Below, piece after piece: positions 4,946 through 64,000 of a stretch of 64,000 bases of DNA. The notes beneath the pieces are model-generated. The model had not been told where the DNA came from and made no database searches. It saw nothing but the letters and a program-made list of their open reading frames with translations. Where the stretch lies: assembly GCA_021780315.1 (NCBI GenBank), contig JAJXYY010000035.1, positions 1 to 64,000 of the forward strand, read 5' to 3'. This DNA is from Acidobacteriota bacterium. Its GTDB lineage: Bacteria; Acidobacteriota; Terriglobia; Terriglobales; Acidobacteriaceae. Position 1 is the first letter of the stretch, and every line of letters begins with the position of its first letter. The position numbers and the translations under genes are program-made.

Positions 4946-5389
4946 CTAGTCGCAGTCCTCATCATCTGTCTTCGCATCTTCCTCCCCGACAGGCTCGCCC
5001 GCGGCGACAGCTTGCTTGCCCATTGCCTGTTCGACGAGGTTCAACAACGTGGCCTTACGGTCTTGAAAAAGCCTGTAAAGTCGTCGGTGCGTAGGAAGCT
5101 CGGCGAGATAAGGTGCGTTTACAGTATGGCGTCGATCGCGGCGGGTTGGAGTTGGACCGCCTTGTCGCTCTGAAGCTGCTCCAAATAAGCCGACGGCGCT
5201 TTGCCGCCAATTTTCCGGTTCGCTTTGTCGGAGATCGCTGTCTTGTTCACAATGGAGTTGAATACTCGCGCAAAGTTTCTCCTTGTAGAAGGAACTCTTT
5301 AGAATCAAGATGGCGTAATTCACGTCACAGCGACTCGCTTGAAAGTTCTCTCGGGCCAATCGCTGGCAACCGCATCGCACGACTTTCAC
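4946..5389 (-). pseudogene. Decayed C-terminal fragment of a DUF262 (GmrSD-like) protein
   Basis: Read on the minus strand with two frame changes and one in-frame stop, this stretch gives a coherent tail: YAILILKSSFYKEKL, then ARVFNSIVNKTAISDKANRK, GGKAPSAYLEQLQ, AAIDAIL-stop-THLISP, FLRTDDFTGFFK, then DRKATLLNLVEQAMGKQ. The NKT.IS.K.NR.IGG.APS.YL ... HLI.P..LR.DDF..F...R...LL.LIE.AMGK pattern is the C-terminal end of DUF262 proteins, the family containing GmrSD type IV restriction enzymes. The conventional reading frame here is only a patchwork of shifted pieces. The remnant lies just inside the left end of the mobile element and points outward. The family assignment is from memory of the motif, not a search. 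Confidence 0.65.
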
Positions 5390-5553
5390 TGAGAAGAGTG
5401 AGCTTTGACAAAGTCAATTTGACCTGAGGTTCCGACCGTGCGGAATCGACAGTCGCCGCCATCTGCAGCGTCATCTCTCATTCAGTAGAATTGCTAGTAA
5501 CCATGAAAACATGGGCATGACGCGACGACGTATCCTATTGTTGGACCTATAGC
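5390..5553. other. Intergenic region upstream of the LacI-family gene
   Basis: No gene is recognisable. It probably holds more of the decayed DUF262 gene at its left side and the promoter of the regulator at its right side. A TTGACA occurs at 5405-5410 but has no convincing -10 partner. Confidence 0.35.
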
Positions 5554-6654
5554 ATGGCTCTCAAAACAAATACATCGGGTGACAAACCGAAGTCCGGTAT
5601 TAAGGCGATTGCTGAGGCACTAGGAATTTCGATTGCAACGGTCGACCGTGCACTTCATAATCGCGGAAGAATCAGTGCGGAGACCCGTACTCGTGTCCTT
5701 CGCATGGCAGAGCGATTGGAATATCAGCCAAATCTCGCTGCACGGGATCTGAAACTGAATCGTCACTTTACTGTTTCCGTAAATCTTCCCATAGGTAGGT
5801 CATTCTTTGATCGCTTACGAGCAGGCGTACTGGAAGGCGCATCGCCATTTCGCTCAACATTGAAAATTGAGGTCCGCAATTTCACGCGAACTCAGGATCA
5901 TAGTCGTGAACTGGAAAGCATTAAGAATGCTATTGATGCGCAGGTAAACGGCATCATTACTGCCCCACCAAATACCCCGCAGATGGCAGACCTGGTAAGA
6001 AGAGCCAAGGAAAAAGTGATACCGATCATCTATATTTCGACCGATGCGCCAGAGTCGGGACGACTGTCTGCGGTAACAGCTTATCCCTTTAACTGCGGGG
6101 CCATGGCAGCTGAGGTGCTTGCTCCCTACATGCAAAAGCAAGGCTCCATCGCTGTTCTTGCGGGGGATCTTGAAAACCTCAATCAGAGTGAAAAGCTTCG
6201 TGGATTCCGGACTGCTCTCTCCCAGACTTCGCCAGAACTTGCCGTTGCGTCCGTTATTGAAGCACGGGATGATCCAAATGAGGTTTACCAACAGACGTGT
6301 CGGCTCTTGCAGACTGTACGAAATTTAAGCGCACTTTACATAGCCACTTCGACCTCGGTCCCCGCCCTTGCAGCTCTGCAGGATGCCGGTCGACTAGGCA
6401 GTGTTTTCGTTGTGACCACCGATCTTTTCCCCGGCTTGGTGCGCTTTATCCGTGATGGCGCAGTAAAGGCTACTGTGTTTCAGTGCCCCGAAGAACAGGG
6501 AAGCATTGCGATACAGACGATGTTTCGGTACTTGTCGGAAGGCATTGTGCCGCCTCCTTCCATCGGGGTCATTCCGCAGCTAATAATCCGAAGTAACCTC
6601 GATCTCTACTCGAAGAACCTGGAAGACGTGGCACAGCCGAATAGTCGTCTCTAA
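5554..6654 (+). CDS. LacI-family transcriptional regulator
   Basis: The 366-residue repressor-type protein has an N-terminal LacI HTH (residues ~15-65: IKAIAEALGISIATVDRALHNRGRIS) with the hinge helix at YQPNLAARDLK. A periplasmic-binding-protein-like ligand domain of the sugar-binding type follows, with GIITAPP, PIIYISTDAP and a C-terminal VTTDLFP strand. It very likely senses a sugar or sugar derivative. It is encoded directly upstream of, and co-directional with, the TonB-dependent receptor, whose promoter region carries a LacI-type operator (6778-6797). This suggests local control of the receptor and sulfatase. The effector is unknown. Base composition is lower in GC than in the flanking chromosome, in keeping with acquisition on the surrounding element. 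Confidence 0.92.
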   Translation: MALKTNTSGDKPKSGIKAIAEALGISIATVDRALHNRGRISAETRTRVLRMAERLEYQPNLAARDLKLNRHFTVSVNLPIGRSFFDRLRAGVLEGASPFRSTLKIEVRNFTRTQDHSRELESIKNAIDAQVNGIITAPPNTPQMADLVRRAKEKVIPIIYISTDAPESGRLSAVTAYPFNCGAMAAEVLAPYMQKQGSIAVLAGDLENLNQSEKLRGFRTALSQTSPELAVASVIEARDDPNEVYQQTCRLLQTVRNLSALYIATSTSVPALAALQDAGRLGSVFVVTTDLFPGLVRFIRDGAVKATVFQCPEEQGSIAIQTMFRYLSEGIVPPPSIGVIPQLIIRSNLDLYSKNLEDVAQPNSRL

Positions 6655-62467: not shown

Positions 62468-63250
62468 TCACCGGCCCGCCCAAACCGCGGCTCGCTTCTC
62501 CAGAAACGCCCGTGTCCCTTCCGCCTTGTCCTCGCTCCCGCACAGCCGTCCAAAGATCTCCGCCTCCACACCCAGCGCCTCCTCCAATCCCACGTCGCCA
62601 CCACGCCGAACCGCCTCCAGGCATCCCGCCACCGCCAGTGGAGCCATCGCCGCCATCGTCCGGGCCAACTCCATTCCCCGTGCCATCAACCGCTCCGCCG
62701 GTACCACCTCATCCACCAGCCCAATCCGCAGTGCTTCCTCTGCGCCGATCATCCCGCCGGTCAGCAAAAGCTTCAGTGCCGCCGCTTGCCCCACCAGGCG
62801 TGGAAGTCGTTGTGTCCCGCCATATCCCGGCACCAGCCCCAGCTTAACCTCCGGCTGCCCCAGCTTCGCCGTCGCGCTCGCAATCCGCAGCGTACACGCC
62901 ATCGCCAACTCGCAACCACCGCCCAGTGCAAAGCCGTTCACACATGCAATCACCGGCTTCCCGCAGGTCTCAATCAACTGCAAAACTCCCTGTCCCCGCC
63001 GCGCCTTGGCCTCGCCCGAGACCACATCCGTCGCTGCAATTTCATTGATATCCGCGCCCGCAGCAAACGCCTTCTCTCCAGCCCCGGTCAGCAGAATCAC
63101 CCGCACCGCGGCATCCGCAACCAACTCGGTAAACACCGCCTCCAACTCGTCGAACACCCGGCTGTTCAGGGCATGCAGCACGTTCGGCCGGTTCAGCGTC
63201 ACCGTCGCCACCGCCTCGTTTACCTCGTACAACAACGTCTCGTAAGTCAT
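62468..63250 (-). CDS. Enoyl-CoA hydratase/isomerase-family protein
   Basis: A 260-residue crotonase-fold enzyme hydrating 2-enoyl-CoA, most likely in fatty-acid beta-oxidation. Motifs: VATVTLNRPNVLHALN, AFAAGADINEIAA (oxyanion hole 1), ACVNGFALGGGCELAMACTLRIASATAKLGQPEVKLGLVPGYGGTQRLPRLVG. Both catalytic glutamates (GGCEL and PEVKLG) are present, so hydratase activity is expected. Closest in feel to PaaF/short-chain enoyl-CoA hydratase. The ATG at 63250 is the family start; 58 upstream codons lack similarity. It diverges from the ribH fusion gene (66 nt). Confidence 0.92.
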   Translation of the reverse strand: MTYETLLYEVNEAVATVTLNRPNVLHALNSRVFDELEAVFTELVADAAVRVILLTGAGEKAFAAGADINEIAATDVVSGEAKARRGQGVLQLIETCGKPVIACVNGFALGGGCELAMACTLRIASATAKLGQPEVKLGLVPGYGGTQRLPRLVGQAAALKLLLTGGMIGAEEALRIGLVDEVVPAERLMARGMELARTMAAMAPLAVAGCLEAVRRGGDVGLEEALGVEAEIFGRLCGSEDKAEGTRAFLEKRAAVWAGR

Positions 63251-63316
63251 CCCAGCCTCCCGCCCTTTCACGCAACTCCAGACGATACAATCGAAGATGA
63301 AGCTACACGGAAAACT

Positions 63317-64000
63317 ATGATTAAGGGAATCACCTTCGTTCACGCCATCCCCTCCGGCAGCGACTTCGATCAACTCGCTGGCCTGTTCAGCGCCCTCGGC
63401 TTCGAGCCCGGCAAAGGTTGGCAAGACGCCACCGGACGCGGAGCAGCCTTTCTGGCCCCCATCGGCAATCTCGAAATAGTCACCGGGCGTCCACCTGCCG
63501 TCCCCCCGCTACTTATCGAAACCACACAACTCGACCACATCCACGCGGCCATCCATCAATGGATGCTCCTCAGCTATCGTTCCGAAGAGATCGCCGCCCG
63601 CCTCAGCGCGCCCGAACTTACCCATTGGAACGCCCGACTCTTTACCGTCAAACTAGGCGAAGACCTCACCTTGGGCTTCTGGCAGTCAGAAAATCCGCTC
63701 CACAACCAGCCCATCGCCATCGAGGGCGATCTATCGGCAGCCGGTATGTCGTTTGCCGTCATCACCACCCGCTGGAACACCGTCATCACCGACCGCCTCC
63801 TCCAGGGCTCCCTCGACGCCCTCCACCGCAGTGGGGCCAGCAAGCACGACATCCAGATCATCCGCGTCCCCGGCGCCTGGGAGATCCCCTCTGCCGCCCG
63901 TGCCATCGCAGAATCAGGCAAAGTCGACGCCATCATCACCCTCGGTTGCCTCCTCCGCGGAGAGACCGCCCACTACGAAGCCATCTACAACGAAGTCGCC
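63317..64000 (+). CDS. ribH: Lumazine synthase RibH with N-terminal VOC/glyoxalase-like domain (partial, runs off window)
   Basis: The open reading frame from the ATG at 63317 is uninterrupted to the window edge (228 codons, no stop), so the gene is incomplete at its 3' end. From about residue 136 the sequence is 6,7-dimethyl-8-ribityllumazine synthase: SFAVITTRWNTVITDRLLQGSLDALHRSG, VPGAWEIP (184-191) and GETAHYE (215-221) with the catalytic His at ~219. RibH is normally 150-160 residues and begins at this domain. Residues 1-130 form an extra domain: GITFVHAIPSGSDFDQLAGLFSALGFEP, FLAPIGNLEIVTGRPP, THWNARLFTVKLGEDLTLGFWQSEN, which looks like a VOC/glyoxalase-type beta-alpha-beta fold. The domain assignment is from sequence feel, not a search. 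Confidence 0.85.
   Translation, partial: MIKGITFVHAIPSGSDFDQLAGLFSALGFEPGKGWQDATGRGAAFLAPIGNLEIVTGRPPAVPPLLIETTQLDHIHAAIHQWMLLSYRSEEIAARLSAPELTHWNARLFTVKLGEDLTLGFWQSENPLHNQPIAIEGDLSAAGMSFAVITTRWNTVITDRLLQGSLDALHRSGASKHDIQIIRVPGAWEIPSAARAIAESGKVDAIITLGCLLRGETAHYEAIYNEVA

Follow-up and report, generated by a model that had tools for sequence, protein, structure and literature searches.

The window, a 64,000-nucleotide stretch of DNA from an Acidobacteriota bacterium of the family Acidobacteriaceae (contig JAJXYY010000035.1 of assembly GCA_021780315.1), closes inside a gene that joins an N-terminal VOC-like domain, of the glyoxalase/bleomycin-resistance fold, to RibH, or lumazine synthase, the cage-forming enzyme that acts one step ahead of the final step of vitamin B2 synthesis (Table 1). 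The reading frame runs without interruption from its ATG to the window end, is still open at base 64000, and finishes at position 64195 of the contig (C23), giving a protein of 292 residues with a complete RibH. The earlier note, made from the window only, had described one uninterrupted frame with an extra domain of about 130 residues ahead of the RibH motifs, and had called for the missing 3' end; the rest of the contig bears this description out, the extra N-terminal part measuring about 134 residues with the linker counted and the motifs VPGAWEIP and GETAHYE lying at residues 184-191 and 215-221. A whole-genome search found this protein to be the sole RibH of the genome. A frame that, from its motifs, we take to be nusB-like begins three bases past the fusion stop, and the divergent neighbour is presumably an enoyl-CoA hydratase-like gene, named in the same way.

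Table 1 Features of the fusion locus, with positions in the window unless the contig is named.
Feature	Position (nt)	Strand	Basis or remark
VOC-RibH fusion gene	63317..64000 (first 228 of 292 codons; stop at contig C23 64193-64195)	+	Open reading frame and rest of contig
VOC-like domain, N-terminal, residues 1-125	63317..63691	+	Profile and fold matches
Linker, residues 126-134	63692..63718	+	From last modelled VOC strand (117-124) to start of PDB RibH alignment (135)
RibH (lumazine synthase) domain, residues 135-228 of 135-285	63719..64000	+	PF00885, TIGR00114, B. anthracis and B. subtilis enzymes
Trp153 codon	63773..63775	+	Position of AaLS residue 22; S. pombe residue 27 by alignment coordinates
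His219 codon	63971..63973	+	Position of AaLS residue 88; H in 49/51
TACAAT, -10-like hexamer	63286..63291	+	25 nt 5' of ATG
Enoyl-CoA hydratase-like gene (presumed), divergent neighbour	62468..63250	-	Motifs

The RibH half is covered over residues 144-280 by PF00885 (DMRL_synthase; E 2.3e-50, 170.6 bits against a cut-off of 26.7) and matches TIGR00114 at E 8.2e-47 (158.8 bits, cut-off 84.6). Its top structure matches are the B. subtilis and A. aeolicus enzymes, and residues 135-284 align gap-free to residues 4-153 of A. aeolicus lumazine synthase (AaLS). Two positions that we take to be catalytic or active-site residues are retained, AaLS His88 corresponding to H219 (H in 49 of 51 aligned members) and Arg127 to R258 (51 of 51). 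The cage-interface positions are retained or similar in the same 51 members: AaLS L26 corresponds to I157 (49 I, 2 V), R29 to R160 (51), L121 to L252 (51), E122 to E253 (51) and I125 to L256 (28 L, 23 I). According to PMC13376624, these five are interface residues and the same interface binds the riboflavin synthase tail; E32 and H132 are likewise examined there. These last two are not kept, being Q in our protein (27 Q, 13 A and 3 E of 51) and A (30 A of 51, no H listed), and the AaLS 41 position is Ser. Like the cage-forming enzymes of B. subtilis (1rvv), A. aeolicus (1hqk) and B. anthracis (4v7g), the fusion thus has a complete RibH with the five interface positions, but it differs from them in the 134 extra residues at its front, in a Trp at AaLS position 22 and in the changed E32 and H132. 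PMC7369331 states that each terminus lies at the surface in the B. subtilis enzyme and in that of A. aeolicus, and that the 60-mer stayed intact when peptides were added. Judged from these kept catalytic and core interface residues, a VOC-decorated particle is likely, and because cage N-termini face outward the VOC domains would sit on its outside.

The Trp at the AaLS-22 position occurs in 93 of 128 fused loci (some genomes were fetched twice, so these are not 128 species) and in one of the 41 loci not scored as fused, a set that includes L071 and L131. That single locus is L131, in which a VOC coding region is present ahead of a stop codon. The lumazine synthase of S. pombe, a fungal enzyme without a VOC domain, shares the Trp: its residue 27, aligned via coordinates (138 to 12), is Trp according to PDB titles ('Mutant enzyme W27G'), and by title the PDB also holds a riboflavin complex of this enzyme (1kyv). 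On the tree described below, the Trp change takes only two steps, and that it goes together with the fusion is therefore no independent evidence of a link. Of 29 fused genomes (our own and 28 others), 28 have a riboflavin synthase whose C-terminus is Gly-Tyr or Gly-Phe; of 18 unfused genomes, 16 have one with Gly-Phe. The ending does not separate the two groups. The RibE tails (L203-L262) have a similar ending, approximately L-T-x-E-x-L-V/I-x-x-G-F/Y and often ANGY in the Trp-type group, which is compatible with a possible cage-localization signal.

We base the VOC assignment of the N-terminal half on profile and fold evidence taken together. A profile of 108 family members matched PDB entry 3bt3, 'Glyoxalase-related enzyme', at E 1.7e-4 (next best 0.026), and PF00903 matched 8 of the 108 at E <= 0.01, with a best value of 2.7e-6. 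AlphaFold2 gave a mean pLDDT of 75.3 and a pTM of 0.70 for the N-domain only, with poor stretches at residues 1-10, 51-60 and past 130, and values of 83.7 and 0.57 for the full-length fusion. In a Foldseek search of the VOC model against the PDB, the best match was 2pjs at E 1.8e-3; no match reached E <= 0.001, and some unrelated rows appeared lower down. VIA-align also placed 2pjs first (Z 9.8, rmsd 2.5 over 106 residues), followed by the riboflavin-bound VOC protein TnmS3 (5umx), second by fold at Z 8.7 and rmsd 2.9 over 100 residues and tied at that Z with bleomycin-binding, glyoxalase and FosX entries and many VOC rows. Nearly all of its best 50 rows are, by title, VOC proteins or carriers of such a domain, Z values below 8 possibly reflecting a common arrangement. 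The whole domain aligns to VOC structures; of the two beta-alpha-beta-beta-beta modules that a VOC protein should have, the first is of low confidence in the model, with its first strand unassigned. The VOC-like character proposed in the earlier note therefore stands on the 108-member profile and the fold, but a single-sequence search with the window protein's N-domain did not recover it, matching no Pfam family and no PDB chain. The converse possibility, an extension unrelated to VOC, fell away: the extension is VOC-related, though it is a common one within one family. A search of the same genome for a second or donor copy of the N-domain gave nothing at E <= 10.

The fusion is conserved across the family. 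In the genus, the alignment extends from residue 1 to residue 284 or beyond in 58 of 62 genomes (our own included); the exceptions are G019 with no match, G004 with residues 1-198 only, G018 with a weak match whose place is not listed, and G051, whose BLAST alignment covers 101-285 and yet whose N-domain is present by profile (L050). The fusion protein has a match in 189 of 199 related genomes (own included), and the listed matches outside the family cover RibH only. For the locus survey we took 85 family loci. Of these, 31 come from the genus, where 61 genomes match, and 54 from other genera, where every matching genome was included; L092, a 100-base filler stretch, was set aside. The N-domain is in frame in 71 of the 84 scoreable loci (L071, cut by a contig end with the VOC tail visible, is excluded) and lacking in 13; in one of the 71, L052, it is divided over two frames. 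The occurrence of the fusion in Acidobacteriota, which the earlier note had left to be checked, is thereby established for the family. Carriers include the named isolates Granulicella mallensis X5P3, Edaphobacter aggregans DSM 19364, Edaphobacter lichenicola M8US30 and Bryocella elongata DSM 22489.

Outside the family, none of four loci (L088-L091) has the N-domain. One of them, L091 from another family, has a long frame ahead of RibH that matches the N-domain marginally, at E 0.0056; its letters are unlike those of the family, and we counted it as unfused. Across 396 genomes of the phylum, 64 gave N-domain matches: 43 within the family, where no E value exceeds 1.3e-23, and 21 outside it, with weaker matches (best E 4.5e-10). 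The latter lie in frames of 122-178 residues in 18 cases and 305-481 in 3, sizes that point mostly to stand-alone VOC proteins, and no RibH was close by in the 10 of these 21 places examined (2.1-2.4 kb each). Likewise, no N-domain match, as from a split VOC gene, lay just 5' of unfused ribH in the locus stretches examined. Among the best 80 of 530 relatives in a GTDB r220 scan, matches over residues 1 to at least 187 were titled Acidobacteriaceae, Granulicella, Edaphobacter, Bryocella, Acidobacterium, Terriglobus, Terracidiphilus, Acidipila, Angelobacter and unplaced Acidobacteriota/Terriglobia. The sole other title was that of L109, labelled Verrucomicrobia, a doubtful label since this locus adjoins Granulicella and Bryocella on the tree.

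A quick maximum-likelihood tree was built from 118 RibH domains, the rows kept of 169 after removal of near-identical ones. The family RibH forms one group of 98 rows (SH-aLRT 81), and on the tree the state, fused or unfused, has to change three times or more with L131 scored as fused. Eighteen unfused rows form a group (SH-aLRT 92) nested among fused ones (83-85), which indicates that the VOC domain is dispensable there, and L077 is a second unfused line. The simplest history, weakly suggested since stars mark no more than 10 of the 115 inner branches, would be one gain at the family base followed by two losses. Within the genus, 30 genes and 200 sampled pairs gave median dN/dS values, over usable estimates only, of 0.171 for VOC (155 pairs), 0.064 for RibH (122 pairs) and 0.203 for the linker (109 pairs); these values are rough because median dS is 1.0-1.4. 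Both domains are under purifying selection, which is weaker on VOC.

Our main reading, to which we give a probability of roughly 0.5, is that the protein is the working lumazine synthase of its genome and carries an N-terminal VOC fold that points outward on the cage and binds a small molecule without a metal. The RibH half would still make 6,7-dimethyl-8-ribityllumazine and would assemble into pentamers and probably 60-subunit cages, the outside of each being coated by up to 60 VOC domains, with riboflavin synthase still able to enter. Less certainly, the VOC half might act as a small-molecule-binding module, most plausibly for flavin, lumazine or a pathway intermediate, and might buffer or sense product at the particle surface. 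Its predicted fold is shared, over about 100 residues at Z 7.7-9.8, with small-molecule-binding VOC proteins (bleomycin-binding 1ecs/1ewj and TnmS3, 5umx) and with Atu1953 (2pjs, function unknown), but identity to these rows is only 16-18 percent and the VOC half differs from them in being part of a RibH fusion. It is the fold rank of the model that points to flavin in particular. Open-access literature yielded nothing useful on TnmS3 with riboflavin or on riboflavin-binding VOC proteins among the matches listed.

It is possible, if rather unlikely, that the VOC domain is purely structural, binding no ligand and setting assembly state or solubility, e.g., through VOC-VOC dimers that link pentamers or block closure. 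VOC proteins often dimerise, and the fast divergence of the domain, in which one position is invariant among the 108 members and eleven are nearly so, fits such a role. The residues that are kept are W35 (98 of 108), E68 (102), W104 (92), R107 (102), F109 (106) and W122 (80). Near-invariant W35, R107 and F109 together with a dN/dS well below 1 speak against a merely structural part, although these too might be structural. Under the main reading, an aromatic VOC pocket for a flat ring can be envisaged.

We consider it improbable that VOC is instead an active metal-dependent enzyme, e.g., one for reactive-carbonyl detoxification near the dihydroxybutanone-phosphate substrate, tethered for channelling. 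The VOC fold would suit such an enzyme, as would a ligand-like Glu at position 53 in 96 of the 108 members, but with columns placed by eye on the Pfam pattern, positions 6, 64 and 120 speak against it. Position 6, the first ligand position, is His in 18 and mostly Thr (62), and position 64 has mostly Asp (46), Pro (25) or Glu (13). At position 120, the fourth, 103 of the 108 members have Gly, Ala, Ser or Thr, and Glu is missing from the 107 residues listed. Glyoxalase I-type metal ligands from both modules were not found in this by-eye matching. A VOC metal site is therefore unlikely, and because metal ligands are largely absent a binding role, perhaps for flavin or lumazine, appears likelier than glyoxalase chemistry. 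The linked activity that the earlier note had suggested for the extra domain loses likelihood in the same way, if taken as VOC enzyme activity.

Far less probable still is that the extension goes untranslated, or that RibH is made from an internal start at about residue 130-144, as the earlier note had allowed with a start near residue 130. Residue 144 is Met both here and in the family consensus, and in one Terriglobus record a stop interrupts the junction, but a start at 144 would drop part of the stretch, beginning at 135, over which the protein aligns to known RibH, the frame is conserved and VOC is under purifying selection. Upstream of the gene, a TANNNT -10-like hexamer lies 6-9 nt 5' of the VOC ATG in 74 of 83 distinct Trp-type upstreams, which are related by common descent and so not independent, against 0-2 in twelve control windows. 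These hexamer counts leave out L121 and L132, where the wrong start was chosen, and the unfused L091, and among the upstreams duplicates and those below 70 bases were entered once or not at all. The hexamer occurs in 6 of 34 upstreams of the Phe-type group (control windows 0-2). A hexamer at a fixed distance from the VOC ATG in relatives implies that the long form is translated, and the Trp-type spacing (e.g., L006-L022) suggests a leaderless transcript beginning at the VOC start codon. Our own genome is among the nine Trp-type exceptions; its TACAAT stands 25 nt before the ATG, so a short leader is expected there, and a sigma-70 two-hexamer scan of 63150-63400 found no promoter. Taken together, frame conservation, dN/dS and the hexamer place the start at residue 1, the VOC ATG, a position that we regard as well supported. 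An assembly artefact or single-genome peculiarity can be practically discounted, since the fusion is found in many genomes, named isolates included, and nothing was found in favour of an artefact.

A fuller form of the main reading would have a vitamin B2 cage with an outer VOC shell that binds riboflavin or lumazine for sensing or buffering and that co-evolved with the Phe-to-Trp change of the RibH active site and a leaderless, VOC-first transcript; this we hold to be doubtful. Lumazine synthase cages have been widely engineered for display through terminal additions, as PMC7369331 describes, and engineered N-terminal fusions of this kind likewise carry a foreign domain via a short linker, whereas the VOC-RibH protein is natural, family-wide and of VOC fold. 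Among the matches listed in the open-access literature searched, we found no description of a VOC-RibH fusion, and an automatic database entry for the architecture may exist. A bacterial family appears to have decorated lumazine synthase by itself and to have kept the decoration over many genera. The fusion offers a natural test of the role of an outer shell on a biosynthetic cage, and a new point at which to study the control of vitamin B2 synthesis in the Acidobacteriaceae, which are common in soils.

Several loci depart from the common arrangement. L131, from a Terriglobus MAG (at about 5001-5597 of the locus), has an in-frame stop precisely at the VOC-RibH junction, which may reflect a gene split in two, a mutation of recent date or an error in sequencing. 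In L052 and L139, titled Acidipila, on contigs of equal length and probably one record twice, the VOC region is split between frames, and L139 has unread bases. In 15 of the 18 unfused loci listed, ribH is preceded on its own strand by a similar enoyl-CoA hydratase-like gene. Four such loci (L068, L075, L082 and L152) have no ATG, GTG or TTG between the prior in-frame stop and the start of the RibH alignment, so a rare start codon or a start inside the core may be used. A short repeat-like sequence (CACCACGGAGGCACGGAGTCACGGA-like) fills part of the gap from the enoyl-CoA hydratase-like gene to unfused ribH in L068 and L075, read there as DNA, and in L079, L080, L081, L154 and L155, taken from translated frames; it looks like a dispersed repeat.
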